DNA of 64,000 bases, from NCBI GenBank assembly GCA_947561715.1, contig OX387201.1:19358001-19422000 (forward strand). The letters run 5' to 3'. The stretch comes from Ascidia mentula. Taxonomy: Eukaryota > Chordata > Ascidiacea > Phlebobranchia > Ascidiidae. The notes below the pieces were generated by a model. It was not told the DNA's origin and did not search any database. It was given only the letters and a program-made list of their open reading frames with translations. Shown in pieces: positions 13,119 to 62,689 of this stretch. A program made the position numbers and the translations under genes. Numbering within the stretch: position 1 is the first letter of the stretch; every line of letters starts with the position of its first letter.

Positions 13119-13139
13119 GAGGTTTTCCAATTGTAACTC

Positions 13140-36526: not shown

Positions 36527-39500
36527 TCAATGCTTTCGGCGGAAGAGGGCGGTGATGTAAGCTCGCATGAGTTTCACAATCTCGTTAACTTGTTCTGCGG
36601 TGAAGGAAATGTCCCCTCTTGACTCGGTCTGAAGTCTGAAAACATTCGCAGATCCCGCTCCGAAAGACTGGATCCTGAGAGGAAGACACAATAACATGTT
36701 CAACTCAAGGAATGTAGCTGCAAAATCTTGCTTAATTGTTTGGAACAGTGGTTCTGAGACTTTTCAAACGTCAGAGCCGAATTCGAAACCGGCCGCAGCA
36801 AACCCGAAACCCTATTTGAAAACTTTTTTTGTAAGTGGGCATTTGACCGAATCAAACATTTGGGCCGTAGTTCACCAACAATTTTGTTTTCTGACGCCAA
36901 ATAATCTGCAGGGAAATATGGACTCCGCGTTACCCCACTACTATGGTTATGGTAAGTTTATGTTTCGTAAAATAAACTGCATTATATTCATAAGACCGAT
37001 AAGCAGAAACGTTGAGAGCCAATAACTCCAACAAGTTTCGTGTCTTCCCGCGTTGAAAACGAACCATTGTGTTCGATCAAACTTACTTTTCATATGAGAA
37101 ATGATCTAGGGACTGTGAGTGACCTCGTTTGAACACAGTTGCTCCCTGCGCCGATATCGCCAGAGTGAGAAGGGTTTGACCGAACTGCGCGTCGTGATTT
37201 TCAACTTTAAACAAGTAGGATCCGTATCCGGGCCACCGACGTGCAAGGTTAACATATTCAGCCTGAAACAAATTGTTGAGATAAAATGAATTAGACGGAA
37301 TGAAGAGAACGCGAAATATGTCGAACATAAAATTATGCGAATATTATTTAAACATCAAGCAGCCAAATACAATGCCAATAAATATCAACCACGGGCAGCT
37401 TGGAGCCGTGGCACACTCGCATGATCGCCTGGAACGAACAGATAGATAGTTTGTTGGAACATCGTTCCCCACTCATTGCAAAGAAATATCCACAATTACC
37501 TGACAAACGTCATGACATGTGCAAATATATAGGGGAGGAAACTCAATTACAGGCGGGAAATCGAGAAATATCAAAAAGCAAAATTTAAAAATTAATTTCT
37601 CAGTTTTTTTACCTGGAGTGATTTCGCTTCCTCCTCAATGTTCAGAAAAGTCCGTTCTTCCATTTGAAGGAGGACGTTAAAAATCCTCACAGCCTCGTCC
37701 CTCAACGTGTAGTGGTCGTCACGAGAGGGCACCTGTGAGCGAACAACGGTTGATTATGATTTCTATGCCTTTTTTTCTAAGTAGCGAAACCAATACTTTT
37801 ATATTTTTTTTGGAATAATCAACTTGGTTCGTTAGCAACACAACAATATGAGCAATGTTACGTCACATATAGATCGGGTAAGATGATGTTGACGTCATCG
37901 TGGTTTTATGACAACCACGTGGATACTTGCAGCACTATTAAGTTTGCGTTAGTATTGGATTCTGGGACGGATAGTTGTAATAATTGCTGGGTCACCTGTT
38001 CGTATGGAAGGGATAGCAAAGGGGATCTTAAAGGCTCGCTTGATTGCCTGAAGATTGGGTTCCTTTTGTAGATTAAGTCGATCTCCTTTTCATTGTCATC
38101 TGAACGCTGTTGCAACATACACAAATTTTAAGCCATAGTTTCATACACTATGGTCAACATGCTAAATATAAGTGAAAGAATGAAATGCTTTGGGCAGAGT
38201 CGTTTTGTTAACAACATTGTAATAATATTCCTGATGTGCTTTTTAAGCAGGTAATTTCAAAGCCATGAGGTTTTCGCCTCGCTACCTAAGTGGCAAGATA
38301 ATCACCAGACACATTACCGACATATTAGATCGAAACAGTTGCCCTGAAAGCAGATTATTCCAAGCAACAAGCTCAGTTTCAATTCTACACTTCTGTACCT
38401 TGATCTTGTCCATTACGATCTTTGTTTTGGTGATAATCAGAGGTTGTCCATCTATCATAGCCTGGATCTCACTGCTCCAGATGTTCGCGTCCTCCTCTAC
38501 CTCCGTGCTGAGTCGGAGGGTGTGCTTCCTCCTGTATACCACAGTCTCCCACAAACCTGTCAGCGTCTGTAGTGAAATAGAGGTGGCGTAACTTCTAGTG
38601 TAGAAAGTGTGGATCGAAACTACAGCTGCCGGTCAATGTTCAGTAATATTACACAAAAAATCACATGCTTAAAGGAATCAACGTATATTATTACATTAGT
38701 TTTATGATTTTAAGTGTTGCGTGTTTTACATGGTAAGACGGAATCGTCCAGCTATACAGGATCTCACAGCGAGGTTCGATTTAACAAGTGTTCATCTCTA
38801 GTAAACACACGAAAGCCCACTTTTACTCCTACATACAGCAGGGACTTACAAAGACGTTCTCGTCCGGTGAGGTGACAACACAGAGACTGTTGAGTCCCAT
38901 CGACCCGATCTTCTGGGCATCGCGGTTGCTGTTCTTGAAATATTCGATCGCGTTTGGTTTCAGAACGAACCACCGACGTTGGTGACTCACTTTCTGCTTC
39001 TCGTAAGATGTTTTAAGCAACCAACCTTGCTGTATGAAAGAATCCTGGCCAGCCTGAAAGTGTATTAACAATATTTGAGATTGTGGGCGAGCCCGAAGAG
39101 TTCTCTTACCACAAAGAAAATATGGATTGAGTTATAAAAGAAAGTGTTACTGACTTTCATTTTCTTGACAAAACTTATTGTGTAATTTTTCTAAAAATTC
39201 ACTTTGTCGTTTTGATTTGTGACCAATTGTGAAGCAATCATTTAAAAACCTGAAGTCAAATGGGGTTTGGTTTCTGTCTGCTTAACACGTACCGAGTCGC
39301 CTGAACTTGCTGTGTTCTTGCTCTCATTGAGTAAAGTGATCCAGTGATGCATTTCCTCCCCCGAATCACTCGCGAAAGTGTAAACACGTTGCGATGTCGT
39401 CACAGTGAACGTGTTCGACTTTCCTGCAGTCACAAACCACTTAATATTATTCACATCTTGTCGCCACGATGCCACGATAGGAGTAATTGGTTCTAATGTA

Positions 39501-42500
39501 GCATCCATAATGTATCCGATTCCTGAGATTATAATCAGTGCCAGAACCCCTAAAGCCTATTTATATTGTAACGTCTTTTCCTCAAGAGAAACTGACAACT
39601 TGCTAAAATACACGAGAGTCACCTGACACAGATGTTGCGGTTGCCTGGGTAACGGTTTGACCGTCGACCGTCATCAGAGCGTTCTTCGGGTTTGCGAACT
39701 CGCTTTCCATGTTTGCTATCTCTTTCTCCGTGCTCGATACAATCTTCATCAACATGCTGCGGAAAAAAAGTTCCACTCAATAACATTTCACAGTTTTTTC
39801 AGTGAAAGTCCACACTGCATCCAAAGACTTTTTACCAAACGTTGGCGATTCTGGTTTAAACTCACCTGTACCATTCCCCCGCCTCCTCGCTCGATTCCGC
39901 CGAAAGGTGGTGCACTTTTGATGACGTCATAATGATGTCAATGCCATTCTCTTTCTCTGTGACGTCAGTTACGTCGGATATTTGACTGAGGTCGATCGTC
40001 CCCCGACACTTGGCGTTCTCTTCGTCGTTATCGTAAACTTCAACTCCTGGTTGCGCAGCGTGAACCATCTGAATTTGGTTATTTGTTGTTGTACCTTGTT
40101 TAGTGTTTTGTTGTTGTACCTTGTTTAGTGTTCAAGCTTCGTGTAACTTACAACTGCTACGTAGAACTAACAACGGAAATATAATATGAAATACATCGCC
40201 GACCACCAACCTTTTCTGCCAATTCTTCCTTGGGAGAGTTCCTCTCAGAGTTCCTTTGCCACTGTCAGCTTTCTTAAACAGCCAGCCGCACTTTAAACTA
40301 TCCTGTTTGCTTCTGAAGATCATGAAAGTGCTGTTACTCAGGACGCACCACCGTCTCTTCCACTGGCTCATGAGGCCACCCTATAACAGGTTGTAAGGTT
40401 GTGCAATGATGTGTTTTCAAATATCAACCAATCTTCACAGTGGCAGAGATTGGTGTGACGCTTGCTAGTTTGTTGCTTAAATGTTGTTGGCCAACTTACG
40501 TGGAGTTGAATTTTATTTCCATAACAAACTGAGCCAATTAGTGGTTGCACTGATCAATGTGATACGTAACAAGCGAACTGATCAATATCAACAACTGTAT
40601 TACTATTACATCCCTAAAACGTCACGAAATTTCAGTGCGCCGTGAGAACATATTGGACGAATGCGATTTGTGAAGACTGGGAACCACGAAGGTGGAAATC
40701 TCAGTCCAACATATTATTCCGTCTAACCTTCACGTCGAGGTAGGAATGAAAGTATACGTTGGGACTCCACTTCTCTGCGACCTCCATACCGCCACTAGTG
40801 GACGTTCCATCGTCACTCATGTCGTCATCATCGACGTCATCAAACGACGAATCAGTGTAATAACTCTCTATAGTGGGTAAACACCCATGAATAATGTTTA
40901 ATTATCAACAAGTTTGATTGAAAACACCAGCAATAGTTCAACCCCCATGCATCATTTCAATACAAAAACATTTATGACGTCACCACAAATCACATGATGT
41001 CGTCACTACTTTGCCATAGAAGTAATAGCACCCCGTGTCAAAACTGCGAAATTTTGAAACAAAGCGTTTAAACACTTACCGTCGTCCATATCAGACGTTT
41101 TAATGTCTTCCGCTTCGTAATTCTCCTCGTCATCTGGAACAATTCCATCCTGTGTGTTCTGTGGGTCGGGGAAATATTTGTTTACTAACTTTTTCCATGT
41201 AAGGTTGAAATTAACCTTTTACACTTGTTGTTAGTTGAGAAACGATAAAGATTAACTTTAAATAATCAAGAATCAAAACCCTTGTCTGTTTGTAGCAAAA
41301 GAAAAACGCACACAGGCAACTGCAGAGTTACGTGTTAATAAAATAATATCAAATCGTTTGCTCTTAGCATAAATAAAACGACTGCCATATTGTTGTTTAC
41401 TAATTGTCACCCAGTGCGAGAATACTTCCCTGCAAACATAAACAATATAACCACAACCTCTTCCCCGTCTCGGAAACTTACAATGTGACTCGTCGCCACT
41501 CAGGTAACTGTTACAAAACAACGTGCAAATCAGCTTAAAACAAAAACAAATATCGTACATTCACTTGATCGACGTCATACGATGTGTTATGCATCATTGC
41601 GTCCACTTGGCTTTCAAAATCTTCAAAACCCAAATCCTGGAGCAACAAAATGTTTAAAAAATCTTCTTTTTTGTCCATAGTATCACCAGCACCCCGAACT
41701 TTGCTTTGTGGTTGCGAGTAACTCGCTTATGCGTTGCATAAATCACAATATTACGCACTCGGGGCAATTTAAAATCAATCAGTAAACGCCATTAAACTAT
41801 AGACCAATTATAATTTAAACGGTAAATTATTTTAAGATGATTTCAGACCTAATACAAGCTGACTTGCTACGTCACGAGGATGACGTCATCGGATTGATTA
41901 TCGGAATTACAACTGATAAGAATGATCTCGGGTTACGTAAAATCATTTGTTAGTGAATTTAAAAATAGCAACCACCATTATGCAATTGAGCCGGATTGAA
42001 TTGTTAGTATGGACAAAACAAAATCCTAGTAACATTCACAGTGTTGTTTGCACGCAAACAACTTATATTTGTAACCTGTAGAATGTCCATTCCTCTGTTT
42101 TCGTCTGCCTTCTCGTCGGGGTAATATTCCTCACCCACGTTCGTTACAAATTCATCGGTTGCTTCAGGTTGATCCTGATTAAAAATTATTAAAGTCAGCA
42201 AAACAAACAAAAATTCTTTTTTGGTAAAAATACCAGATTCGTTTTTTGCCAACTTAGATTGTTCTTAAATACCTTCCAGTATTCTGAATCATATTATGAC
42301 ATCACAACACTTATTCTCACCACTTCCAGCGCAAGACTCTCCCTGGCCTCGCTTCGTCGATGCATCTGCGCGATCTCAAGTTCAAGTTGGAAGAACCTCT
42401 CCATCTCCTCCCGTTCCGCATCATCAAGCTCCTCCTCTCCACCGGGTGAGAGCATCCTCTTGTTTACGGTTGAGTAAGCACTGTCTACGTCACCGGAATC

Positions 42501-43493
42501 TATGACGGCGTCGAGTGACGCAAGAGCCGATTCCTGCCCGAAGAGATGGGCGAGTTTGTTTTTTACAATAGGAATATGATTTGAATCTCTTGCTGGCGGA
42601 AACCAAGAAACAATTAAATTAAAAGTTCCAAGTGTTAGAAAGTAACCAACCCAAAAAGCAAGTATTTTGTTTAAAAGATCAAGATTTGTTTCACAAAAAC
42701 GTAGCACACACAAGCACCCACATGTTCGCCATCGAAACCTCAACAAACTTATTGCAAACACAAAGTCAAACTTTAAATATTAGTCAAACAATTTCTGTGG
42801 AAATTCATAAAAGTGGAGGAAACCGTTCTGTTCCAGGATTCTTACACAATGTTATTGTGACCTTTAAATTTATAAAGCTGGCGGGTAAAAGGAAAGTAAG
42901 GGACGGACAAACCTGTTCCTCCCTCTGTTTCCTCTCCCTTTCCATTTGTTCCTTAAGAGCCTTGAGTTCTCTGTGTTTCTCAAGCAGGATCTGAAAGGTT
43001 GCCATGGAAATCGTATCAGCAAATGCACTCGATGACTTTTTACACAAAGTGACAGTGCTTTGGGTGTATTTAGTATTTCAAGTAGAAAATCGTAAACTCC
43101 AAGTGCGGTCATTGATAGTATGTTGTCCAACAATATTGCGTCAAGTTTCCTTGCCAGCAAGCATCAATCACTGAAAAGAGGTCACGCAAATGTTTGGCAT
43201 GTGACAACTAATATGACACACATGGATTGTGTAATCCTGCATTAAACTACCAACAATTTATGCATTGAAACCATCCAAAAACAGCAACATCCTACCTCAA
43301 ACATCTTCTGGGCTGCCCGCCCTCTCGTGTATTTCTGGAAGACGATCGTCGCCTCCGCCCTTTTTCTCTCCCTCTCTCGTTTTTCTGCGAGAAGAAGTTT
43401 GAATAATTTTCTTGCTTTCCTTCCTCTCTCGAATTTCTGCATTGTGATGATCGCCTTGTGAACTCGTTTGAACTTCCTCCGCGCAACAAACCC
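36527..43493 (-). CDS. MYO10: myosin-X tail: IQ, coiled coil, acidic linker, PH domains, MyTH4 start, FERM F3
   Basis: Exons in minus order (high-low): 43493-43296 (IQ-like), 42990-42913 (charged helix), 42533-42321, 42174-42076, 41636-41565, 41158-41080 (acidic linker), 40867-40728 (YYTDSSF, YFHSYLDVK), 40380-40211 (split PH1, WKRRWCVL, GWLFKK), 40068-39866 (NGIDIIM), 39756-39623, 39522-39293 (EEMHHWITLL), 39053-38850 (PH2, RRWFVLK), 38566-38399, 38106-37996 (YKRNPIF), 37732-37613, 37262-37087 (F3, RRWPGYGS) and 36674-36527 (stop). Phases agree, with these motifs closely matching vertebrate MYO10, the filopodial motor that binds phosphoinositides, microtubules and integrins. The motor head is not upstream in the window. 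Between 37613 and 37262 the MyTH4 core, F1 and F2 are missing; only 31 bases of the MyTH4 core exon remain (37398-37428). One base is lost at about 40045 in the PH1 exon. As it stands this copy would not give a normal tail. Confidence 0.88.
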
Positions 43494-44939
43494 CTGAATA
43501 ATGGCGGGAAAACAAGAAACACACATGTTGTGTAGTAGATTTGTATAAAATACAGTCATTGTTTAAATTAAATAACAAAAAAATGTAAATACAATACTTT
43601 GCTTTATAGAGATGGAAGTTCAATGCTGTTTCAAATCAGCAGTTGAGTTATGGCTCTGATCTTACTTGCATCATTTTCACGAAGTAGTGTTGTCCCACTG
43701 TTTGTCCAAATATACTTGAAGGCTTGTCTTTTTTTGTGCTGCAAGCAAGTGTTGAATAATTTTCGGTTTTGTCTTGTCAAACTTTCTGTCATGAAAAAAA
43801 AATGCAGGTTGGAAGTTGTTTCTTTGGAGTTGGGGAAATGCAGATTTGATTTGTTGAAAAATATTTAATTCCTGATTTTCCTTGAAATAAACTATCAGTG
43901 GGGGTTATTTTGACGAGCTGCTTGTTGTTCTCACAGGTATTCTGTTTGAGATGCTACATCAGTTTTTTGAATCGATACTCCCATGTGTTTGGCATTTGCA
44001 TTTGGTCGGTGCATTCTTCTTTAGTTTGTGTTATGCAAAATATTTGTTTGTAAAAAAAACAGAAAACAACAACAGTTGAACTGAAAGAAAAAGTATTAAA
44101 ATTGCGAACATACATATTTCAATGCATTCTCTCCTGCTATATTGTTCAAGGATATTTACTTCACTTTTGCTTCTTCAACATCTGTTTGCAATTTTAATTA
44201 CTTTTTCTTTCAGTTCAACTGTTGTTGTTTTCTGTTTCTTTTACAAACAAATATTTTTAGCCAAAATTTTTCTATTCCAACCTTATTGAAATAGACCTGG
44301 GGACACTGTGGATGGTTTTGACTTGTAGGGGTCTCATAAGTGCAGTTGGTAACTGTGGCCCAGGACTAGCTCGCAAACTAGCCAGGAACAGATATTTTTC
44401 AACGTAAGTCAGTTGGGTACCCATAACTGGGCATCAAACAATAGAGACGAACCACTGTGGAGCGCATTATGCCCAAACAACTGCTTGGTATCCAACAGTA
44501 TCAAATCATATGGTTTGTTATGGCTCATATGCATTTTTCTTTACAATCAATTTTGTTTCAAACGAATTTGAACACAGTTTTTACTTTATGTATGGAGTTT
44601 AGGTCGGCATAAACTCAACGTGATAATAAACAGTTCAAATTAAAAACCTGCATTTTGCGGCTGTTCAGCAATTCATGATATCACGTTTATAAACACCGCT
44701 GGTTCTCATGTTTAGAAATGTTCACGACAGGTTTTTGTGATGAAACCTGTATGAGACAAACAATAAAAGTTGAACATAAATGATATGAAAAAGAACAAAA
44801 TGTTACTTCATAAGATTAAATGTAGCAGTTCAAATCTGGAGCTAAACAAGAATTTAACTCGACCACAAAAAATGGAAAAACTCACTAAAAGTCCCATGAA
44901 ATGGTGACAAAACAGATGTGCATGCGAGTATTGTGGATG
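43494..44939. other. spacer upstream of the myosin-X tail exons
   Basis: No motor-domain or further IQ exon was found here, although myosin-X must have them. It contains the foldback at 44037-44257. The remainder is AT-rich with no recognised feature. Confidence 0.45.
44037..44257. mobile_element. foldback repeat with arms of about 68 bp
   Basis: 44037-44104 and 44189-44257 are inverted copies (AAATATTTGTTTGTAAAA outward; CAGTTGAACTGAAAGAAAAA inward) around a spacer of about 84 bp. A few mismatches. No target duplication seen. Confidence 0.65.
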
Positions 44940-45870
44940 TCAACTGATTAAACTTAGTTTACTTGAAAAAAAATTGTTGCCACTTTTACAAACAACCTCA
45001 TCCACATCAATTGTAAAAAGTTCAGGGTTCTCCAATTCTATTCTGTTCCAACTTGATGAAAGTTTTGAAATTAATTTGAATTCTTCTGTGAATTGGTTGA
45101 GATGCCAAGCAACACTCATGTGGTAGGATGGTTTGTGTAGTAAGGCTTGCAATGAAAATCCATGAATGCTTTATCCACGATCTGAACGACTTTATTCAGT
45201 TGTTGAACTGCAGGTTGCGCTGAAATCTGGAATTGTTTGGAAACAATAACAAACAATCTGATACCAAATCAAGACAAGAAATGCTGTCAAAAAGTTTCAC
45301 CCTTACCTTAAACCCACGAAATGATCTTGTTTTTTCATCGTTCACATAAATATTCAAATCATCAGATGATAATGTGATTGAAAATCTTCGAAACCGTTTT
45401 AAATTTTGTCTGAGACTTTCTACTAGAGGGTCTATGCAGTGGTGAGGTATGACATTAGTCCTTGAAATACTCACATGGAAATCATCCACAAGATGCCATG
45501 AGGATTCTATCAATTAATTCCCAAACATTTAAAAATGTACACAATAATTTAAGCAGATAATTTAATACCCCTTTCTCTGCTTTCGAGTGTTTTTTCAACG
45601 TTGAATTTAAATTCATCCAAACTTTTTTGGGGGTAAGGTATGTAAACATACGTTGCCCAATTCCCGCGCTCATGGGGGAACGACCGGATTCGACCTCGGT
45701 GTTCCTGGGGTTTCAACGACTTGGTGTCTCCAAACAATGAAGAAATAGCTTGCGGTAAAGGCAAATTCACTTTGGTGCCAGCTTGATCTACTTGCGTTAA
45801 ATTGCTCGTCGTTATAGCTAAAATCAGAATCACTGCCGTAAGCGTCACAAAGCGAAGCCAAGGCCGCCAT
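44940..45870 (-). CDS. USB1: USB1, U6 snRNA 3'-phosphodiesterase, three exons
   Basis: Exons 45870-45569, 45506-45307 and 45226-44940 follow GT-AG sites, with introns of 62 and 80 bases. USB1 is a 2H-family nuclease that trims the U6 tail and leaves a cyclic phosphate. Exon 1 has RGRIRSFPHERGNWATYVYIPYP, exon 2 has DDFHVSISRT (first His-x-Ser) and VNDEKTRSFRGF, exon 3 has PSYHMSVAW (second His-x-Ser) and CKSGNNFFSS at the C-terminus. Length and order match the family. Two single-base slips interrupt the frame: an extra A in exon 1 at about 45800, absent from the copy at 18 kb, and a missing base in exon 3 at about 45137. Each exon length is off by exactly that base, so these are sequencing errors or a freshly dead gene. 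The acidic Ser-rich N-terminus is normal for the family. Confidence 0.82.
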
Positions 45871-47908
45871 TTTTTGACCAGAAATCAGTTTTCAAACTGG
45901 CACTTTTTAATCAAATATAAGGGAAAGCACCCGGAAAACCATTGAAGCGTGCAATCGTCAACATCGGTATGAAATGCAACAGGGGGCAAACTTTGTTTCC
46001 CCTTACAATTACTAAACAGCTTAAACTGTACTGACTGCAGTGGAAACACCACTGTTCGTTGGCGAGTTACTTGAATGGCGCGTTTGTAATGCTGGAAAGT
46101 GACCACGTGGTGCCGCTGTGCGTACATTTTCATCCCAGTGTTACGAACGGGAGACACTTAAACCACCTCACGGATGGGCGAAACGGGATTTCTCCGTTTC
46201 ATGCGTGGCTACTCAACATTAGTTTCCACGAAGACTTTGTAATATTATAACTCTAATATTTAGTTTGTTTATGCAAAAACGTTGTTATGCACTGAGAACA
46301 TTTTGTTTTTTGGTAGATTTGCCTAAAGTCGAGAAATTTCAATAATTTAGGACGTGTGTAGCATTGCCGAAGCATGTGGTGAACGAATCAAATGTTTCAT
46401 TAATAGAAGATGTTTTGCTTGCTTTTAAAATACCTCCATACAATGCCTTGATAACTATTTTAGTTCAGAAAGAATGATATTTCCAACAAACATGTCTGAA
46501 AAGCTAGTTTAACCATTACACGATGAACCGGGGAAATCCCGTTTCGCCCGTCCGTGAGGTGGTTTAAGTGTCTCCCGTTACGAACAGTTTAACCATTTAA
46601 TAACATTTCTATGTTACTTGAACCCATGTGTGTATATGTGCACATTTGCAACACATCATCGCATCCTTTTATTTCACAAAGCGTGCTCGCTGGCTTACTT
46701 GCGGGAAATAGCCACAGTAATCGTTAACATTATAATGTAGATTAGACTTCGTCTAGATTCTAGTGATACTTTTAATGTTTGTGAAGCGTTATGTAGACTT
46801 AAAGCCCTGTCATGTGCCTCTTTCAGTGTTTTGTAAGCCAGTTGACTACATTGGCAATTTGTGACGTTTGCTTGTATGATTTAGACGCCAAGCTCACTCC
46901 GCGGTGCCTTTAGAAACGTGGTACTGTGACCTTCAGAAATCTCGACCCTGCCCTGTATGACTGTATGCGCTAAACTGTGCCCTGTTTGTACTGACTACCC
47001 CAATGCTGTCTTGTTGCTGATGTATTGTGTCTCGCCCATTCCACACTGCGTACTGATTCGTTGTTCTTTCACTGCACAATATATTCAATAAAAACCAAGA
47101 GACTGGGGTGCGGTTGCGAATATCTGACTCATCGTACCTGGCGTTGGTACTTACGAAGACCTGATATAGGCAGACCGATAGCGAGCGTAGGCCTATGCAT
47201 CACTTTATTTATGAAGATAATACCGAGCATCCGGTTTACCATGGAACGCAGTCTGTAGTTTGTTCAAACCTTCAAGCAAAAATTACACAGATTACCTTAA
47301 GCTTATAAAAACCATTCCAACAAAATAGAAAAACCCCAAGAAAACAACCAAACAAACGGGAAACCTACATGGAATCGACCTTAACGGAAACCCAATAGCA
47401 GTCGCTCTACGACGATAATTTTAAATGCACTCTGAAAACGAAATTAAGATCTTTTTAAATTAAATTTGTGGGCATTGGTAACGAATGACGCTTTATTGGG
47501 CTTCAGACTGGTTGACAGCACGGGTGAATGTGTTTTTCTTTGCGAAAACGAAATGGAAACAATTTAGCATGTATTTTTTGTGTGTAATAAATGTTGCAAT
47601 ATTCTGGGAAGATGTAAGTGCATGGTTGGACGCCAAATCGATGGAAAGAATTCTACTGACCAACTTTTGATATAGAAAACGTAAATACGAACCGAGTAAA
47701 ACTGGTTAATTTGTTCTTATTGGAAGCAAGATTTTGTATTTCAAAATGCAAATTAGCTAAATTGCAAGAATGTTTTGAAATATTCTATACAAAAGTTCAG
47801 CAAATCAAGGCAGCAGAACGAAAAATCCACTGCCAACTAAAAATGGGGAAAAATTCAAACTAAAATAAAATGCGTTCTAATTTAATCGCGGTTGTAGGGA
47901 GCGATCTG
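45300..47908. repeat. segmental duplication, second copy (pairs with 17815-21117)
   Basis: Lacks the Harbinger-like insertion. It contains USB1 exons 1-2, the Mutator-like MITE and about 1.3 kb of gene-free sequence, then diverges near 47908. Confidence 0.85.
46149..46576. mobile_element. Mutator-like MITE (428 bp)
   Basis: Inverted ends of about 55 bp start GGGAGACACTTAAACCACC and differ at few positions. The 9-bp target duplication GTTACGAAC lies at 46140-46148 and 46577-46585. Long inverted ends with a 9-bp duplication fit the Mutator superfamily. No coding capacity. It lies about 270 bp upstream of the USB1 start, so it could affect that promoter. Confidence 0.75.
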
Positions 47909-48754
47909 CGGCATAGGTTTGAACCCATGACCGAGTGCTGTTTACACTTTTCTGCCTGAACAACGCCTGGTTACAGTTGCCTGCAGGCATAGAATTGAAC
48001 CCATGACAGAGTGGAAAATAAAGGTTATGAAATAATGTAGAAAAAAGCGAAACCGACGCATTTCCTGCTCCTTAAGAAATGCCACCATAACTTCCTTGTG
48101 TTGTTGGCTGCACTCCACAAACTTTCGTGTTAGATCTTGCGCATACGTAGAGGTGGTTGTTTGTTTTTGTTTTCTGGTCGATCAACATTTTCACCGCAAA
48201 TGAATCGCGAAAGTTATGAAATGACGGCTCGCTCTGGTCCCCAGGAAAACAGTAAGTCGTACAAATTGGTTATATTATCTTTGTGTGGAGAAACTAATAT
48301 CTTGTTTTCTGACGCGTTTTCCGAACCGGTGTGAATAAAGCGGAAAAGTCCAAACTATTTTTTCACAACTATTGACGTCACTATCGACGCTTATTCAAAG
48401 CTTTGTACCAAAATGGCATTAATGTGACAACGTGTATTATGACGTCATGACCTTTACATAAAGAAACGCCAGCAAAAAAGTTGGGAAGCAACGACAAGAC
48501 GGCTTTTCGCCACCATTTTGCAAACGAGCACCCGCCGGCAGGAACGCGTCTAAGTATTTCAAGTTGTTTTTGGTGGTATTTGTGGAACAGCCCATGGCCA
48601 AAGGACTGGATGTGTGCGAAGCCAAACCGCACCCAAGTTTCAATAAACATTTAAAAATGATTCCCCCCGAATTCGTAAGCAATTGCTGGCAGTTTTGTTT
48701 GGTGTTGTGTTTAATGGATGGAGAACATCTTTCACCATTGTGTTAATGTTGTTC
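47909..48754. other. intergenic repeats
   Basis: About 48450-48735 is the inverse of the repeat at 21785-22075. A short direct repeat (TTGAACCCATGAC-GAGTG) occurs at about 47930 and 47995. No gene. Confidence 0.4.
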
Positions 48755-49520: not shown

Positions 49521-52500
49521 AAGTATTGTAGGAATGTGTGTTGTTTGAAGTTTGAACTGCGTGTTCAACTGCGATCTGCGTTTCCTTTACTCCTGACTCC
49601 TCTTCGTAACTAACCAAACTTGTGTTAGTTTGTTTTATTCACCAAAGACGAAAGATATATGTGCAGAATACAACTGAGCCCCAGAGTAGAATATACAGAC
49701 GGTGATTCTACGCTAAAGGCGAACCAAAATGTAGAATGGATTGGTGAAACTACACTAGGCAGAAGCTCAGCGCAGAGTGGCGATTCCACGATGTGGAATG
49801 AATTCGGACCACAGAAACCACAGATTTAAAGACAATTCATATTAACCAGTTATGCAGCTTGCGTGAAAACCGCGATACATAATTACGTGTTACGAGCGAT
49901 CTCCTGTGTCGTTTCAGAAAATAGGAGTTACACTTCCTGGTACGAACTGCTAAGTCACTCTGCATTACCTAATGGAAAATTACGTAAATGTGAACACTAC
50001 GTCACAGCATAAACGTTACACTCGTCTTACCCCAAAAAGTGTTTTACAGAATAGGCAAAAGAACAACGATATAAGAGAGAAAGAAGAGAATAAGAAGAAA
50101 AATGGTATTTTAGCTTTGTCAAAGTACATGTCACAAAATAATTGCCAAACAACAAAACCATGCGTAAAATATGTCAATCGGCAGTTACGTGCTTCATCAA
50201 ACCAAAACAAAACTAGAGCAAGGATTTTTCCTATTGGGGCTTCAGACATATAAAGAGTGGGGAGGCATATTTAGGGCGACTTTGCTTAATTATGCGCCAT
50301 GTAGTATAAAGGTATCAGGCCCCGTGCTAACTTTGTCATGCAGACACGTTAAGGGTTGAATCAACATTTCACATTTAACAGACGTCAATTACGCAAGGAA
50401 TAATATTAACTAACGTTTCGGTGACAAGGAGACTTAACAAAGTTTAAAAACCCTTTTACAGAAAATGAACATAAGGGAATTAGTATTACATAACCATTGA
50501 GGGCTAGGCATGGCTTAAAAGAGTAGAAACAAAAGTAATATGCAACATCACCGGGTAATTTACGACAATGTTCCGACGTTTGTAGCTAAGATTTCTTGAA
50601 ATATCCTTGATGTTTGCAATGGCAGGTAAAAATTCAGTTCATTGCCTTTAATAATCCATGAGTGTTGAATAGAGAAATTGTATAGTCCAACAGCATTCCA
50701 TAGGTTTGACTGTGAAGGTCTTGAAATGAAATCCACCTTCCCTCGCGCAACAGACTTTGTCGGGTTACATGCTTGCCTGTTGGCATCGGTCCAACACAGT
50801 GCGATAGTCCGCCGGAATTGACAGTGCGATTTCCCGCAGCGACACGCCAACGCCCGCCGGCAGCCCAGGCCAAAACAACGAGACGGAAATTGGGCAGGGG
50901 GAAACGAACAATCACGGAAAATATCCAACGTTGTATATGGGGAACGATGAAATCCGTGCGTACGCGAATTGAATCTCCTCTAAGCTCGATTTAAAGCGCA
51001 GGGCTGGAGTTGACGAATCCTCAGGAAAGCACTTGTGAATGGAAAGAACCGACGATGAATCCAAGAGAAATGGTAGTAGCAACGGTCCAAATAAGAAACA
51101 GAGGAACCTTGAAAATCTCAGCAAGTGTTGAAAGATTTTCGATAGATTCCTCGTGACAGTTAAGATGATGAAAGAATTTCGACCAAAAGTACAACTGGTT
51201 TGGTACTCACGGTCAAAAATTTGTCGTTCGTCTTGGAAGAATTATCTTCAATCTTCTTTCTTCGAATTTTGCAGGAAACTTTGCAGGTACGGGGTCGCCA
51301 AATTGTATAATGGAATCAACAAAGACGAAAGAATATACAGACGGAGCCCCAGAGTAGAATATACAGACGTTGATTCTACGCTAAAGGCGAACCAAAATGT
51401 AGAATGGAATGGTGAAACTACACTAGGCAGAAGCCCAGCGCAGAGTAGCGATTCCACGATGTGGAATGAATTCGGACCACAGAAACCACAGATTTAAAGA
51501 CAATTCATATTGACCAGTTATGCAGCTTGCGTGAGAACCGCGATACATAATTACATGTTACGAGCGATCTCCTGTGTCGTTTCAGAAAATAGGAGTTACA
51601 CTTCCTGGTACGAACTGCTAAGTCACTCTGCATTACCTAATGGAAAATTACGTAAATGTGAACACTACGTCACAGCATAAACGTTACACTCGTCTTACCC
51701 CAAAAAGTGTTTTACAGAATAGGCAAAAGAACAACGATATAAGAGAGAAAGAAGAGAATAAGAAGAAAAATGGTATTTTAGCTTTGTCAAAGTACATGTC
51801 ACAAAATAATTGCCAAACAACAAAACCATGCGTAAAATATGTCAATCGGCAGTTACGTGCTTCATCAAACCAAAACAAAACTAGAGCAAGGATTTTTCCT
51901 ATTGGGGCTTCAGACATATAAAGAGTGGGGAGGCATATTTAGGGCGACCTTGCTTAATTATGCGCCATGTAGTATAAAGGTATCAGGCCCCGTGCTAACT
52001 TTGTCATGCAGACACGTTAAGGGTTGAATCAACATTTCACATTTAACAGACGTCAATTACGCAAGGAATAATATTAACTAACGTTTCGGTGACAAGGAGA
52101 CTTAACAAAGTTTAAAAACCCTTTTACAGAAAATGAACATAAGGGAATTAGTATTACATAACCACTGAGGGCTAGGCATGGCTTAAAAGAGTAGAAACAA
52201 AAGTAATATGCAACATCACCGGGTAATTTACGACAATGTTCCGACGTTTGTAGCTAAGATTTCTTGAAATATCCTTGATGTTTGCAATGGCAGGTAAAAA
52301 TTCAGTTCATTGCCTTTAATAATCCATGAGTGTTGAATAGCGAAATTGTATAGTCCAACAGCATTCCATAGGTTTGACTGTGAAGGTCTTGAAATGAAAT
52401 CCACCTTCCCTCGCGCAACAGACTTTGTCGGGTTACATGCTTGCCTGTTGGCATCGGTCCAACACAGTGCGATGGTCCGCCGGAATTGACAGTGCGATTT

Positions 52501-53357
52501 CCCGCAGCGACACGCCAACGCCCGCCGGCAGCCCAGGCCAAAACAACGAGACGGAAATTGGGCAGGGGGAAACGAACAATCACGGAAAATATCCAACGTT
52601 GTATATGGGGAACGATGAAATCCGTGCGTACGCGAATTGAATCTCCTCTAAGCTCGATTTAAAGCGCAGGGCTGGAGTTGACGAATCCTCAGGAAAGCAC
52701 TTGTGAATGGAAAGAACCGACGATGAATCCAAGAGAAATGGTAGTAGCAACGGTCCAAATAAGAAACAGAGGAACCTTGAAAATCTCAGCAAGTGTTGAA
52801 AGATTTTCGATAGATTCCTCGTGACAGTTAAGATGATGAAAGAATTTCGACCAAAAGTACAACTGGTTTGGTACTCACGGTCAAAAATTTGTCGTTCGTC
52901 TTGGAAGAATTATCTTCAATCTTCTTTCTTCGAATTTTGCAGGAAACTTTGCAGGTACGGGGTCGCCAAATTGTATAATGGAATCAACAAAGACGAAAGA
53001 ATATACAGACGGAGCCCCAGAGTAGAATATACAGACGTTGATTCTACGCTAAAGGCGAACCAAAATGTAGAATGGAATGGTGAAACTACACTAGGCAGAA
53101 GCCCAGCGCAGAGTAGCGATTCCACGATGTGGAATGAATTCGGACCACAGAAACCACAGATTTAAAGACAATTCATATTGACCAGTTATGCAGCTTGCGT
53201 GAGAACCGCGATACATAATTACATGTTACGAGCGATCTCCTGTGTCGTTTCAGAAAATAGGAGTTACACTTCCTGGTACGAACTGCTAAGTCACTCTGCA
53301 TTACCTAATGGAAAATTACGTAAATGTGAACACTACGTCACAGCATAAACGTTACAC
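49521..53357 (-). mobile_element. tandem non-autonomous LTR element (LTR-internal-LTR-internal-LTR), looks young
   Basis: A unit of 1668 bp is repeated: LTRs of 385 bp at 51304-51688 and 52972-53356, a third LTR ending at 50020 whose outer part differs, and internal regions of 1283 bp (50021-51303, 51689-52971). On the minus strand each LTR begins TGTAACG and is followed by TTGGCGACCCCG, a primer-binding-site-like motif; a T/G-rich tract precedes the next LTR. No gag or pol domain was recognised in the internal region, so it is TRIM/LARD-like and depended on another element. The two units are almost identical, so the tandem is recent, probably by LTR-LTR recombination. It sits inside a Penelope-like element. 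Confidence 0.8.
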
Positions 53358-53612
53358 TGTTTCGCCTCCCGCAGTGTTTCGTGTTTTGCCTCTGCTACGT
53401 GATCTAACAAGCGGTGTAAACGTGTCCTTTTTTGTGCCCCTGAATGTTTTAGTGTAGTTTACTTTGAAATTGCGGCATCAATACCTGATGAAGTCTCGCT
53501 GAATGGCAGACGAAACGTCGTAAAAATACAGCACGTATATTTTATGCCAGAAGAGCGGTACATTTTAAATTGCAATATGTCTGTGGCAGCAACAGGAGTT
53601 CCAGGTTTGTTT
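53358..53612 (-). mobile_element. detached terminal arm of the split Penelope-like element
   Basis: Matches 31440-31690 closely. It continues exactly where 49520 broke off, which shows that the LTR element landed in the arm. Confidence 0.75.
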
Positions 53613-53822
53613 TAGGTTGAATGCATGGCCAATAAAAAATCAGAAAATCTTCATAAACTAAATGCAATTAACAGAAGAATATTTTTGAGAAAAAAAAACA
53701 TCGCAAACCCATTTTCGGAAATTTATACGAGATAAAACTATTAATATTGCGAATTTTAATTTGTTTTAAACCTTTAAATTTCTTGTTTACTTCTAGCGTA
53801 TGTTCTTTAATTTTGTGTAGCA

Positions 53823-54540
53823 ATGATGTTAAAGTATTATTTGCAAGCTTTCCTGCTTTGTTATCTGCAATGCAAGAATCAATGCAATTCGTTGATAGGT
53901 AAGCTGCGTTTCAAATTTACTCAACAAATTTTCATGTACTGCTTATAAGTCTACTAAATATTTCGTTTTCACAGCAACGTGTGACACAAAGTTATCAGAT
54001 TTAAATCACTCAATTTCAAAAGTAATCTGCCCACCCAACTGCTTGAGACAATATTCGGATTTGTGTGGAAGTGATGATTACGCCTCTGGTCCCCTTTGTC
54101 TGGCTGCAATGCATGCAGGAATGATGGACAGTAAGTTACAGTGACAGTACCCTGGCATGTTTACCGGATTTTCTTTTATATGAACTCAAACCAAATATTT
54201 TTGTAAAGATGATGGAGGCTACTTTGAAGTATACAAAAGTGATCCAATACATGAATATAAAGGATTGGACAGGAACGGAGTGAAAAGCAAATCTTGTTCG
54301 TTTGCAAGATGGTCGTACACATTTGAAAGTAAGCTATGCTCCGGGTAGCGTTTTGGTTAGAATAAATAATTACTATTAATGTAAATATAGTGAAATGCAG
54401 CACGACAGCAAACAGTGAGTTTTCTGTAACTGATGTATTTTCCCCACCTGGTTGTTCGTCCAACTACGTCTGTGGAACAAATTCGTACAACAAGAATTCC
54501 TCGGTTTGTGCCTCTGCCATTCACGCTGTTATCTTGTCGC
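53823..54540 (+). CDS. secreted LCCL-domain protein, four 5' exons, truncated
   Basis: Exons 53823-53898, 53975-54130, 54209-54328 and 54391-54540 all join in phase 1. Exon 1 encodes a signal peptide (MMLKYYLQAFLLCYL). Exons 2-3 form one LCCL domain: CPPNCLRQYSDLCGSDDYAS, LCLAAMHAG, then a glycine/aromatic segment GGYFEVYKS and LDRNGVKSKS. Exon 4 starts a second LCCL domain (CSSNYVCGTNSY, VCASAIHAV). LCCL domains occur in cochlin, Limulus factor C and vascular/lung proteins, usually extracellular and sometimes binding bacterial lipopolysaccharide. After the donor at 54541 no third LCCL exon follows; the next sequence is a decayed copy of the ficolin last exon. The gene is therefore cut off. 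A fusion transcript is unlikely, as no acceptor is visible. Confidence 0.78.
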
Positions 54541-54577
54541 GTAAGTTGGTGTAATTAACACTTTGTGGTTTGTTTGG

Positions 54578-54712
54578 TGGAGCTTGGTGGCATCGTGATT
54601 GTTCATATGAACCGCCTCAATGGTCCGTGGTGACAACACTATGAGTTAGTGGCATTGGAAAAACTCATGAAGCGGAATAATGAGTTCTAAGATGAAAGTG
54701 AAATGCGAGTAA
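54578..54712 (+). pseudogene. decayed copy of the ficolin last exon
   Basis: Matches 33998-34153 ([13 protein letters not shown], then the C-terminal codons and TAA), but about 12-15 bases are missing in the middle and Cys/Trp codons are altered. No acceptor precedes it. It marks the left edge of the segment shared with 34-35.4 kb. Confidence 0.75.
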
Positions 54713-56139
54713 ATGTTGGGGAGGTTTAAAGTGACGAAAATTAACATTGCGTCGTTAGTTACCATGGCAACGTTGTGTTGATTTACAATTATCCGACAGA
54801 CATTGTAAATACTTTCACCTGTTTTGAAAAAGGCTTTAAATCGTAAATAACAGGGAAACAATTTCACCAAACCGAATTTATTCCACAAATCCTCACAATT
54901 TTTGTGTTAGTAACGAACTTCACCTTTCTGCATGTTTGTTATTATCATGGTATTTGTAGGGCGTTACCTAAAACGTCCACAAATAATAACACTGCCGTAT
55001 ATCTGACTCCTGATAAAAAGGCTGCTATCAAACCCAAAGTCAATCGTGCAGTTTAATACATATTAAACAAACGCACGAGGATTAACAATAACACGTTACA
55101 AACCACGCGTACAAAAAGTCTTTGTCCTATATGTCCTTTGTCCTCTGTCCCTTCGTATCTTTTTTACGCAAAAGACCTGTGGCCTGTATAGAAAATGCAC
55201 ACCGGGTTATTTGAGTTCGGATTACCACGTGACACATTTGAAAAGGCGGCTTGTTGCTGGAAGTGTCAACGAACGAATAGCACGTTCGCCGTAAATGAGT
55301 TAAACTTGGTTTACAGCGTGATAATTATCCGACGTTAATAAAAAAACGGTTGATGCCAGAAAAACGCAACATAATAATTGCAATTATGACGTCGACACTA
55401 CTTATTATTACATTTTGTGTGTTTCGGATGTCACTTCTTCCATATAATTATGTCAATGTGTCAATTAGATATTGACAACATATTCCGTTTTATCATTCCT
55501 TGTATATCATGTCGTTGTTGTAATATCGCATGCAACCGTTTCCATGTTTTATGTTGATAATCCATGTAAATATAAACATTGATCCATCAGATTTGACAGT
55601 TGATTTCTGATTCGAGGATGTCAGTAAATTTGATTCAGTTCAGTTTGGCTTTCTCTGATAAACCTCAAAAATGCAGTCACGCCAATTCACCGCTAATATT
55701 TACAGAAATGCGCGGATATCGCGGCGCCATTTCACCGACTTATGGGAAAGGTTTTTTGTGAGGGTAAATTGTGTAACAAGGTTTCTTGTCAACACCCAGG
55801 TCCTCATTGCAGCCCAAATGATGACGTCACGGCCGTGGGCCTTCGAGTGGCGTCTGTCACGTGTTTCATTTTGTTGTTGTTTTTGTCTGTTCAGTTACCT
55901 GCCTCCCTCTGCACACACCTTGCTGCAACTCATTCTTACTGGGCACTGATGATGAACACAGAGGTGTTGGAAACGTTTGCTTCGGCATGAGTAGGATACT
56001 AGCTTTGGCTTTCATTTACAAATCATTTCCTTGTCACCTCCCAAGGTTAGACTTTATACACTCTTGTGTAATAACCAAACCTAACACAGCAGTTTGTGGA
56101 GGACACAGACGCGTCTGATGCGTCTGCCGGTTGCATTCC
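54713..56139. repeat. duplicate of 34154-35376
   Basis: High similarity throughout, except for about 215 extra bases near 55155-55367 that the first copy lacks. No gene called. The match ends at ...GGTTGCATTCC, where the myosin-X F1 exon region begins in this copy and different sequence in the other. Confidence 0.8.
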
Positions 56140-56200
56140 TTACAACGAATTTGTAACTAGACTTCTCAAATCAAGTAAAAAAGTTCCAACGGCAACTTAC

Positions 56201-58773
56201 TGTTCGAACTTTGCAACGATATCAGCGAGGAAAGTGTTTGGTTCAATCGCTCTGTCAACATCGCCCTTGTGTTCGAATAATGCGAACGTGTTCTTATTCC
56301 CTTCCACGTTCATTCCATGCTGGAGTTTCTGGACAACATGAACACCAAAGTTGGACGTAAACTGTCTAAAGTGACTCCTCTAATTTAAAGTAAAAATATT
56401 TTGTAACTAAAACAACGAAACGCTTCTGAACACATAAAAATGCAGAACATAATTTAATAACAAATATTGAAAAAGAAGCATGTTTGCCACCAACCAACAA
56501 AACCAGATCATCAGAAGAAAATACAATTCAAAATTATACAAGAAATACTTCCGAGTGTTCGACATTACAATTTGTAACAAAACACTACTTGCATTTCAAG
56601 CAGTGGTGAAAGAGTTGATGTAGATTTCGCATGTTGCGCCACCATAGCAGTTAATCACAGTGACCAGGTCCCTCATCTCCAGCACAGCACAAATCTCAGC
56701 AATGGAAGGAACCATCTCACGTCGACGTGACGTCTGCTGACTCAGCGCATTTTCACCGAACTCGGCATAAGCTCCACCAAGAGTGCCAGGAAATCGCTCT
56801 TGTACCCTGATAACGGATGTTAATAAACAAACGGTGAAAAGGATCCCCGAATAATCATTACTGTACAGATTCCCAGGCATCTTATGGCACATTTGTGTGC
56901 AGTCAACAGCGCGAGGTAAGATAACCCGACCCGCTGTAATGCAAAACTACTGCTTAGTAGCAAGTGCTTCTCAAAGTGCCGCACGCCCCACCAATTTGGC
57001 TCGGAAAAATCGTCGGTGGACGTGAAGGTTTAAGACATTTCTTGGCTTATCTCTCATTAAACGAGCATTTTGTTTCAAATTTACTGGGAATACAAAGCAT
57101 TGAGGCAAGCAATAAATTCTGGTTTACCAACAAAAGTGGGGTTAGAGATGTTTTAGAATTAGCGCTCAGACCAGATATTCACAAACTTTTCGTCTGCAAA
57201 ACCTATGAAGATTGTTTAACTTAACAAAGAACCCCCTAATGTAGTAAACCTTTTGTGTTAAGGGTTCCGCGAACTCTACATTGGATAACGAAGTTATTTA
57301 CACACTTTGGTGACGTCATACCTCTTTAGATTCAGCTTCAGGTAAGACAGCACGGGACGTGATGGGTGGTACGCGCAACACATACAAGCTATGAGATGCC
57401 AGTAATGCGGACATGACGTCACATGAAGCTGGTCACACATTTGCTCGTCTGTGGTGAGTTGGAGGGTGTAGATGGCGGTTTGTTTGATTAATTGGAGATA
57501 AAGCTCGTCCTGGAATAGCTTGGAGCCGTGGCACACTCGCATGATCGCCTGGAACGAACAGATGGATAGTTTGTTGGATGGACGGTGTCGCAATTTTATT
57601 AGTTTATCTTTTTTGAATGCTGATTGATGTCAAGTAAAATTTTGATATAAAATGTGATCTGTAAACATCATTCCCCACTCATTGCAAAGGAAGATCCACA
57701 ATTACCTGACAAACGTCATAACATGTGCAAATATATAGGGGAGGAAAATCAGTTACAGGCGGGAATTCGAGAAATATAAAAAGCAAAATTTAAAAACGAT
57801 TTTTTCATTTTTTTTCCCTGGAGTGATTTCGTTTCCTCCTCAATGTTCTGAAAAGTCCGTTCTTCCAATTGAAGGAGGACGTTAAAAATCCTCACAGCCT
57901 CGTCCCTCAACGTGTAGTGGTCGTCACGAGAGGGCACCTGTGAGCGAACAACGGTTGATTATGATTTATATGCCCCTTTTTTCTAAGTAGCGAAACTATT
58001 AATTTTTTAATTTTTTTGGAATAATCAACTTGGTTCCTTAGCAACACAACAATATGATCAATGTTACGTCACAGATAGTTCGGGTAAGATGATGTTGACG
58101 TCATCGTGGTTTTATGACAACCACGTGGATACTTGCAGCACTATTAAGTTTGCGTTAGCATTGGATTCTGGGACGGATAGTTGTAATATTGGCAGGGTTA
58201 CCTGTTCGTATGGAAGGGATAGCAAAGGGGATCTTGAAGGTTCGCTTGATTGCCTGAAGATTGGGTTCCTCTTGTAGATTAAGTCGATCTCCTTTTCATT
58301 GTCGTCTGAACGCTGTTGCAACATACACAAATTTTTAGCCATAGTTTCTTACACTATGGGCAACATGCTAAATATAAGTGAAAGAATGAAATGCTTTGGG
58401 CAGAGTCGTTTTGTTAACAACATTGTAATAATATTTTCTGATGTGTTTTTTAAGCAGGTAATTTCAAAGCAATGAGCTTTTCGCCTGGCTACCTAAGTGG
58501 CAAGATAGTCACCAGCACCCAAACCGACATATTAGATCGAAGCAGTTGCCCTGAAAGCAGATTACTCCAAGCAATAAGCTCAGTTTCAATTCTACACTTC
58601 TGTACCTTGATCTTGTCCATTAGGATCTTTGTTTTGGTGATAATCAGAGGTTGTCCATCTATCATAGCCTGGATCTCACTGCTCCAGATGTTCGCGTCTT
58701 CCTCTACCTCCGTGCTGAGTCGGAGGGTGTGTTTCCTCCCGTACACCACAATCTCCAACAAACCTGTCTGCGT
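56201..58773 (-). pseudogene. MYO10: second copy of myosin-X tail exons: PH2 end, MyTH4, FERM F1
   Basis: Minus order: 58773-58606 (PH2 end, VVYGRKH), 58312-58202 (YKRNPIF), 57937-57818 (DEAVRIFNVL), 57548-57322 (MyTH4 core, FQDELYLQLIKQT, SRPVLSYLK), 56806 to about 56600 (ERFPG, MVPSIAEICAVLE, CYGGATCEIYINSFTTA) and 56328-56201 (NTFALFEHKGDVDRAIEP). These match vertebrate MYO10 in order and include MyTH4 and F1 parts absent from the 36.5-43.5 kb copy. The donor after 57818 reads GG instead of GT, and no donor was found after SFTTA. Upstream PH1, coiled coil and IQ, and downstream F2 and F3, are missing. It cannot work alone. Confidence 0.82.
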
Positions 58774-58969
58774 CTTTAGTGAAATAGAGGTGGCGTAACT
58801 TCTAGTATAAAAAGTGTGGATCAAAACTACAGCTGCCGGTCAATGTTCAGTAATATTACGCAAAAAATCACATGCTTAAAGAATCAACGTATATTTCCCT
58901 TGTATTATACCAGACTGATCCTGTTTAAACAAGTGCTTTTTGTGTAGGCAACATACATATTATTAAACT

Positions 58970-61900
58970 TTATTACATTCGTTTTATGATTTTAAGTGTT
59001 ACGTGTTTTACATGGTAAGACGGAATCGTCCAACTATACAGGATCTCACAGCGAGGGTTATTAAATCCCTCAAGCTGGACACTGCCTTGCCACGTGACGT
59101 AGAGCACAGTATGAACACGAGGCTCTGGAACTTGCCTCTCGACTTGATTGAGGTAACGCCGCTCCAATTGACGGGCATTCCGGCGCACAACAACATGCCC
59201 AGCCTCGACACGTGGTTGCATGTGCAAACTTTGCGTTGCCGCCGTTTGATTTGTGACACAAATTTGTACAGCTTTAATCAAAGTGAGATTTTCTTTTTTA
59301 TGGAATATCACGAGGTCCACACACAATTTGATCTCTTATCAACGAATCTTGCAACTTGCAGAAAGGTTATTTAATTCCATTGTATATTGGTCGATGGGCT
59401 CACCTTGATGCTGATGTCGAGAAAAAAACTTGTGCCTCTCAAAAGTGACATTGCGTTTTGGACAGCAATATTGTCCAAACTGATGTATTACGGCTTCATA
59501 CCCTGCTTCGTCAAAAGATTCTTTTCGAAGTGCTGAGGTGTCCATTTGCACTTGCATTCCTACTGTTTCGATTGCACAAACGATGTCTACGTCATCGGCA
59601 CTTTCCTCTCCGTCGAAAGTTATATCATCGCCTTGTGGAAGTCGGCTTAAAACATCAGCATTGTTATGTTCGCAGGTTTTTCTGTACTCGATGGTGCTGT
59701 ACTGAAATTGGTTTATAAAAAATGCCCATCGAGCCAACCTGTTGGCTGCTAAAGCTGGTGTAGGTTTTAGTGGACCAAATAAAGACATCAGTGGTTTATG
59801 ATTTGTTATCTTCTTCCAAACAAATATTAAAAGAACTTCTTTAGAGCGTAAACGATTGACAAAGCCTCTTTTTGAATTTGACTGCAATTCCTCTGGCTTT
59901 GTGTCAAAGTTTTCGATACATTGGCAGTTGGCCGCTCTCTGCCGTCGGGAAAACGGTGAAACAACGTAGCACCAATTCCAACGCTTGATGCGTCACAAGC
60001 AATACCAACAGGAATGAATGGATTGAAATGAACCAACACTTGGTTTCTGATAACAATTCCTATAGCTGATTGAAAGAACGTTCTTCTTTTTGACACCATT
60101 TCCAAGGAATGCCTTTCTTCGTGAGACGATAGAGTGGTTCTGCTACAGTTGAAAATTCTGCGGGCAAAAATTGTACAGATCCAAAGAAAGACCGCAGCGT
60201 TGGTACATCGTGCGGTGCAGGCATCCTTTGTACAGCGTCGACTTTGGCACCCTTCGTGATGCCCTTGTTGGAGAGAACATGGCCAAGGTACTCAACCTGC
60301 TGTTGAGCAAATTTGCATTTTTCCTTCCTGCAACGTAAGCCTTTAGCTTGGAGCCGTTACAATAAACGTTTGAGATTGTGAAGTTGGTCCTTGGCAGACG
60401 AACCACTGACCAATATATCATCTAGATATACTGCAACATCCGGTAGGTCTTTAGTGATATCATCCATAATTTCTTGAAAATAAGCTGGCGCAGAACTGAT
60501 ACCAAAAGGCAATACGTTCTGTAATAAAACTCCGCGATGTGTGCTCAGAGCAAGCTTCTTCCGACTTTTTGGTCCCAACTTGATTTGATTGTACGCATCC
60601 GCCAAATCGATCTTCGTGAAGCCATAACCACCACCTAACTTTCACATTAAATCTTCTGGTAATGGCAATGGGTGACGATGAACCTCCAATTGTGAATTGG
60701 CAGTCACTGAATAATCACCAGAAATTCTTAAAACAGGCTTTTGCGAAGAAGTGATTGATTTGCGGACCGGAACTATTGGCGTACCCCAGTCGTTGAACTT
60801 CACTGGAGTCCAAATTCCTTTGCTTATCCCGGAATCCAAAACCTGGGACAAATCACTCTGCATAGCGAACGGAACTGAACGTGGTTTGCAGAAAACTGGT
60901 TTTGCGTCGTCCTTGAGTTGTACCTCCAGTTCATAATCTTTAAGACAGCCTAGATTGGGCTTAAACAGTTCTGCAAATTCACAGCACAACTTGACACACT
61001 CTTCATATAGTGATATATCTTGCGGTTCTTGGGCGGTTACGGCTTGTAGTACCTCTCCAGCTTGTAAGTTTGACTTGCCGTACAGAACTTTGTCTAACGA
61101 AATACCATTTTCTGTAGTTCGTTCCGCCCCACCAAATTCAGACGTTGAATGTCGCAGACGTTGAAATGAAGGTAAGCTACCTTTCCGGAATCTGCACAAC
61201 TGGTAGCAGACGTAAATGTGCCCATCACCGGCAAGTTGTGCCTGCTTGCAGACTGATACTGGGACGTTGCTTTGTGCAGCTTTGGAGAACCAATCTTCTT
61301 CCATGTTTCTTTTGACAGAAAATTTCCGCCTGTAGCTGTATCAAGTTCTATGATCAGCGAACGATCGTTCATAGAAATTGGAACTTCCAACTTGAGCGTG
61401 GCTGCTGTAATATTGGAAACACAAGTCAGTTTCTCAATTCTTTTAATGCCATGGGACGTGCACTGTCGAATCTTTTTGCGGCAAACGGATTCCAAGTGTC
61501 TTGTTAGGTGACAAAAATGACAGGTTGCATTCTTGAAGCGACATTCGGAAGCCTGACGCGAAGTCTTGCCACATCGATAACATTTCCTCCCTTCAGGTAA
61601 TTGCACCGACCTCGAATCCACTTTACGTTTCTCCCACGGTTTAGCTGTAGCACGTACCTTGAACACCGAAGTTGATGGCTGCGTCCCGTTAACAGTTTCT
61701 TTAGACATTTTGGCAGCATCTTCGGTTTCGACCGCAATGTCAATTGCACGAGCAAAACTCAATTCGTCATCCTTTGTCCTGAACAGAGCTTTCAAAACCG
61801 CTTCGTTTTCAATTGAACAGATGAAACGAGTGCGCAAAGCTTCATCCAATCAATCTGTGATGGATGCAAAGTCGCAAGTTGCTGCGCTTTGTCGAATGCG

Positions 61901-62574: not shown

Positions 62575-62689
62575 ATTTATACGAGATTTAAAGATTTTGT
62601 TTTTGATCCATTAGCATTTTTATATTTTTATTTTTGTGTTTTTTTGGGGGGGTTAAACGGAACGAAGCAATGAAAATCAGCTAATTTAA

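Follow-up and report, generated by a model that had tools for sequence, protein, structure and literature searches.

Two partial copies of a myosin-X tail, W1 and W2, were found in the window, the stretch of 64,000 nucleotides of Ascidia mentula DNA analyzed here (C69:19358001-19422000, C69 being the contig that carries it; positions without a contig name are window coordinates). We consider it probable, at roughly 0.8, that the two are damaged paralogues with independent deletions, lying in a segmental duplication of ~92 kb related to a macrosatellite-like tandem array on another contig, C70. The genome searched comprised 196 Mb in 79 contigs, and the reference peptides were the exons of one array copy, copy B (C70:~20417281-20442643), identified by eye in its open reading frames. 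Where the C69 block meets its flanks, and at the private junctions of W1 and W2, the assembly is taken as it stands. Coordinates are collected in Table 1.

Table 1. Features of the window, with strand and supporting evidence
Feature	Position	Strand	Evidence or remark
In-window part of the ~92-kb block homologous to the C70 array	12309..64000	.	Order rearranged; block ends at ~104066
Second partial HVSL copy	17666-18404		Pfam 1.4e-12 and 0.00015 (latter below cut-off)
Ficolin-like gene, 5' part	28711..30409	+	Exons: collagen-like and first fibrinogen-C; Pfam Fibrinogen_C 1.4e-11, Collagen 0.00014 (below cut-off)
3' flank of W1	33985..35376	.	Shared with W2 flank 54563-56139 and C70 copies
W1, myosin-X tail copy 1	36530..43505	-	tblastn with exon peptides of C70 copy B; Pfam IQ and PH
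W1 F3 exons	37086-37262 and 36530-36670	-	F label from PDB myosin-X alignment
W1 deletion junction	37397..37398	.	3082 bases fewer than copy B (most of MyTH4 core exon, F1, F2); 2-base AG overlap
W1 MyTH4 a / b	37975-38118 / 37613-37699	-	
W1 PH3c	38447-38560	-	
W1 PH3a	38850-39053	-	
W1 PH1c	39266-39466	-	
W1 PH2	39865-40044	-	
W1 PH1a	40210-40380	-	
W1 IQ exon	43299-43505	-	tblastn; Pfam IQ
HVSL-domain gene exons	44943..45884	-	Pfam HVSL 2.5e-16, 1e-08, 6e-14
W2 deletion junction	56135..56139	.	3731 bases fewer than copy B (F2, F3); little or no overlap
W2, myosin-X tail copy 2	56203..58767	-	tblastn; Pfam MyTH4 1e-10; similarity reaches 59.06 kb
W2 F1b	56203-56337	-	
W2 F1a	56599-56814	-	
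W2 MyTH4 c / b / a	57318-57551 / 57818-57904 / 58181-58324	-	
W2 PH3c	58654-58767	-	
4.39-kb unit: PH3 end and putative gypsy-like retroelement (minus strand)	58652..63043	.	Begins again at 63044; 98.5% over 957 bases
W2 5' truncation junction	59056..59057	.	Boundary between myosin-X and retroelement DNA; seen again near 63448 and in C70 copies

The predicted product of copy B is a class-X myosin, with a motor closest to myosin-X among solved structures. The best PDB match of the motor was myosin-X (4.1e-198), the best from any other class being myosin-VIIa (3.8e-122), and the MyTH4-FERM tail likewise matched myosin-X (1.7e-96). Copy B holds a motor, IQ, coil and PH exons, MyTH4, and FERM F1 to F3, and many of its exon edges, inspected by eye, carry GT/AG signals. 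The Pfam and tblastn exon map fits an interrupted PH1 with PH2 inside it, which we take to be a trait of Myo10. Pfam gave no label for the F1 exons, the F3 exons, or the PH3c piece; the F labels are those of the PDB alignment.

Both window copies lie on the minus strand. By tblastn, W1 runs in the order IQ, two coil exons, four linker exons, PH1a, PH2, PH1c, PH3a, PH3c, MyTH4 a and b, F3a, and F3b. Missing from it are F1, F2, and the bulk of the MyTH4 core; the remnant of the MyTH4 core exon is its first 32 to 35 bases, a length that depends on the exon start chosen. A sequence-only reading of the window had credited this copy with F3 and the mere start of the MyTH4 core, as found here, but had ended it at 38.8 kb, beyond which tblastn and Pfam place PH exons and then the IQ exon at 43.5 kb. 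One Pfam PH match in W1 (39245-39556) scored below the cut-off. The PH piece at 38.4-38.6 kb, in a frame for which Pfam returned no match, is probably the last part of PH domain 3, judging from its position. The one stop in W1 lies in a piece labeled PHx, which is probably noncoding, because C70 copy A has two stops there; no other stop was found in the placed exon matches of W1 and W2 or of two further C69 copies, W3 and W4. W2 retains the PH3 end, MyTH4, and F1, whereas F2, F3, and every PH exon before PH3c are missing, and the reading of MyTH4 and F1 without F3 was borne out by tblastn. Its MyTH4 exon alone matched myosin-X in PDB (4.3e-07), and its 5' side is interrupted by retroelement DNA. 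PH domains, MyTH4, and a complete FERM occur together in neither copy.

The same sequence-only reading had taken the copies for complementary halves with shared sequence on both sides of each gap. Self-comparison recovered the shared stretches (33985-35376/54563-56139 and 37397-38774/57517-59056) and showed that each copy is interrupted by a gap, W1 at 37397/37398 and W2 at 56135-56139. Identity was 90.7% for 33985-34596/54563-55154, 95.6% for 34597-35376/55361-56139, 98.4% for 37397-37458/57517-57578, 94.4% for 37458-38689/57664-58895, and 96.6% for 38688-38774/58970-59056. A chance repeat is excluded as the source of this similarity, which extends over kilobases at 91 to 96% identity. The complementarity fails at F2, which tblastn with the copy B exon peptides detected in neither W1 nor W2. 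A search of 154 kb of C69 for the myosin motor found none of nine motor patterns, and none of 17 copy B motor peptides matched by tblastn at 1e-4. With both F2 and the motor lacking in each, W1 and W2 cannot pair into a whole gene. The C69 copies most likely yield no working myosin.

A genome-wide search gave at least 49 MyTH4 matches, 40 of which lie in C70:19840755-20979381 (1.14 Mb), all 40 on the plus strand. Those outside the array comprise two more on C70 (at 3.11 and 19.52 Mb), four on C69, including W2 and W3, and three on C1. Three of the loci, L001 on C1 and L002 and L003 on C69, showed no myosin-X exons at 1e-4 and presumably represent other MyTH4 genes. Spacing within the array ranges from 11.5 to 63.5 kb (median, 26.9 kb), and the unit length is not uniform. 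Eight of the 40 array copies were read, five of them as 3-kb best-scoring loci only, and these eight differ by 1.3 to 4.0%. The 100 kb of C70 that was read contains three copies, A, B, and C, one of which (B) has a motor and a full tail; motor motifs in these 100 kb, a scope that excludes the DNA upstream of copy A, were confined to copy B, and copy C is headless. As assembled, the array is macrosatellite-like, its copies being large, numerous, highly similar, and all on one strand.

A 100-kb stretch of this array (C70 20370001-20470000) covers most of window 12.3-64 kb in altered order. When C69 was divided into 4-kb bins, coverage by matches to these 100 kb was 0.0 in all bins before 12001, 0.45 to 1.0 from 12001 to 104000, and then 0.07 and 0.0. 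The edges of the block are abrupt near 12309 and 104066 and have in common only a 10-base word, and identity to C70 is 84 to 99%, mostly 93 to 98%. C69 carries four myosin-X tail copies (W1 to W4), two of them beyond the window and placed by tblastn. W3 (93.9-99.2 kb) extends from part of PH3c through F3b, with its F2a exon split into two matches, as would be expected of a 1-base frameshift; W4 (102.2-103.3 kb) consists of F2c, F3a, and F3b. A dispersed tail copy at C70:3.11 Mb (L028:316-6697) spans PH3c through F3 and has a stop within F3a. Its match to the array is abrupt at both ends, the first lying within PH3c (exon or intron) and the second in the 3' flank. Transport of the tail by one mobile element was considered and rejected, as no ends common to L028 and the C69 block were seen.

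The exons of the HVSL-domain gene, which we take to be USB1, and of the ficolin-like gene lie in the C69 block, and C70 contains DNA that matches them; ficolin-like motifs were also found in C70 and at further places on C69. The retroelement of the 4.39-kb unit appears gypsy-like from open reading frame motifs inspected by eye, and Pfam returned no match for its part at 60645-61340. A 4.3-kb tandem pair of the PH3-end and retroelement material is present at C70 20456262-20464445 (97.6%). Other repeats were observed as well. A 113-base minisatellite lies between the two ficolin-like exons (29225-29499; 2.4 copies); longer stretches of it measure ~3.6 kb at C70 20449715-20453353 and, beyond the end of the window, 4.3 kb at 68713-73046. 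A retroelement at 13115-17066 (Pfam DUF1759, 7.6e-07; reverse transcriptase, 0.00027, below cut-off), presumably BEL/Pao, shares 98.7% identity with C70 20408262-20412214, more than most of the block does. A 1.67-kb tandem repeat at 49668-53358 has units 99.4% identical, with relatives (84 to 95%) behind C70 copy A at 20380760-20382869. Two plus-strand open frames at 23933-25072 (114 and 265 amino acids) had no Pfam match at 0.01; they lie in the region shared with C70. A protein kinase frame (5974-6885; Pfam, 3.2e-29) lies outside the duplicated block. Rfam gave no match within the window.

The deletion junctions of W1 and W2 were absent from the other copies read, which included 8 of the 40 array copies. 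The 5' retroelement junction of W2 was found, save for point differences, in five of six aligned C70 sequences (C, C0, L004, L005, and L006) and was absent from copy B and W1; L007 and L008 stood outside this comparison, their loci beginning at that point. A deletion from F1b to F2b with an identical 11-base filler is common to C, L004, L005, and L006 (four of the eight array copies read) and, as read through in C, leads to a stop directly after F1. Because this deletion with its filler and the 5' junction are shared, it appears that defective units were themselves amplified.

In a tree of 12 rows of PH3c-to-MyTH4 DNA, in which one of nine inner branches passes both thresholds, two are open, and most forks are weak, W2 groups with C, L004, L005, and L006 of C70 (support, 95/91) and W1 with A, B, L008, W3, and L028 (84/88). 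The W1-W2 difference is 5.6%, the maximum of the set being 5.9% (W2-W3), and neither copy is the other's closest relative. End branches are 0.019 to 0.037 outside the array versus 0.006 to 0.013 inside. The 11 copies with a MyTH4 core differ pairwise by a mean of 2.5% in exons and 4.2% in introns; L004 and L028 have gaps in an exon or at its edge, that of L004 falling inside a MyTH4 exon. From variable sites in five exons, the ratio of nonsynonymous to synonymous change was 0.10 for the full-tail copies A, B, and L008 (8 synonymous, 3 nonsynonymous) and 0.40 for W1, W2, W3, L028, and L007 (14 synonymous, 20 nonsynonymous). For C, L004, L005, and L006, over exons before the shared F1 stop, it was 0.28 (11 and 11), with a p of 0.0035 against equal-rate neutrality in a test that ignores transition bias and tree structure. 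No stop was found in the five exons in any of the three groups, and pairwise ratios pointed in the same direction, scattered from 0.07 to 0.94 on few changes. As ratios of 0.28 to 0.40 fall below the expectation for dead copies, youth, conversion, or residual function is needed to account for them. Constraint seems weaker outside the full-tail copies, yet not gone, and youth and gene conversion would explain this as well as function would.

The block unites the class-X myosin gene with the HVSL (USB1-like) gene and the ficolin-like gene's 5' part. These observations could be accommodated as follows. Array copies would multiply by unequal exchange and conversion, truncated units being amplified together with intact ones. 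A segment of several units would have moved to C69, if we infer the direction correctly, and been rearranged there, and W1 and W2 would each have lost 3 to 4 kb through end joining.

The sequence-only reading had left two origins side by side, and the one that stands is a single ancestral gene with two different deletions. The other, that the assembler placed two alleles of one myosin-X locus in series, would account for two nonidentical partial copies with shared flanks. It is highly improbable given the 5.6% divergence and the tree positions of W1 and W2, the loss of F2 and the motor from both, and the recurrence of the W2 5' junction on C70; moreover, the two further C69 tail copies and the 40 array matches exceed haplotype splitting. 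An assembler or scaffolder error that put C70 array sequence into C69 would fit a block homologous to the array almost end to end, with abrupt edges, and repeat arrays are difficult to assemble. We regard such an error as unlikely: the window and fetched loci contain no N, the block order differs from that of the C70 stretch read, and the longer C69 end branches, compared with those of the eight array copies, suggest separate evolution.

A different alternative concerns function. The headless copies might encode tail-only proteins (PH3 end, MyTH4, and F1) selected as decoys or scaffolds, for which the ratio of 0.28 in C, L004, L005, and L006, without stops before the shared F1 stop, could be cited, as could the headless Myo10 transcript known in mouse (excerpted portion of PMC5725431). 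That ratio nevertheless exceeds the 0.10 of the three full-tail copies and would result equally from conversion by intact copies, and the neutrality test has the simplifications given above; the 5' side of these copies is retroelement DNA, and L004 has its gap inside a MyTH4 exon. We regard such a function as quite improbable. Its extension to the ~40-copy array, in which motor-less, retroelement-truncated units would have multiplied and been kept open by selection, supplying many tail-only proteins that tune filopodia or integrin binding, must be called a long shot. Damaged paralogues in a segmental duplication remain the preferred reading of W1 and W2, and the most unusual element is the array itself, in which the tail of a class-X myosin has been amplified to ~40 copies within a single genome.

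Our comparison of the array with macrosatellites of the D4Z4 type (PMC3018141 and PMC4063668) draws partly on general background. Both have large tandem units in many similar copies. The C70 array differs from D4Z4-type macrosatellites in that its unit holds a large multiexon myosin gene, its spacing is irregular (11.5 to 63.5 kb), and an outlying block lies on another contig. The sea urchin Sp185/333 cluster, as far as the available text of PMC5103432 describes it, likewise combines clustered similar genes, segmental duplications, and short repeats; it is an immune gene family, whereas here the lectin-like part of the unit was observed only as a 5' fragment.

The Myo10 tail is given in the part of PMC3942036 available to us as IQ, two PH, one MyTH4, and one FERM, and copy B has the same class-X domain set, including the motor and FERM F1 to F3; W1 and W2, in contrast, lack the motor and parts of MyTH4-FERM, and the gene here stands in an array. 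Lineage-specific myosin expansions are cataloged in the same portion of that paper, with none in class X among them, and a term search of the open-licence literature, which covers few subscription papers, brought up no description of a myosin-X array. The headless mouse Myo10 (excerpted portion of PMC5725431) resembles the truncated copies in being a tail without most of the motor; it is an alternative transcript of one gene, whereas the copies here are separate truncated genes known from DNA alone. The ~40-copy array lends itself well to the question of whether tails amplified without a motor act as regulators or are junk.
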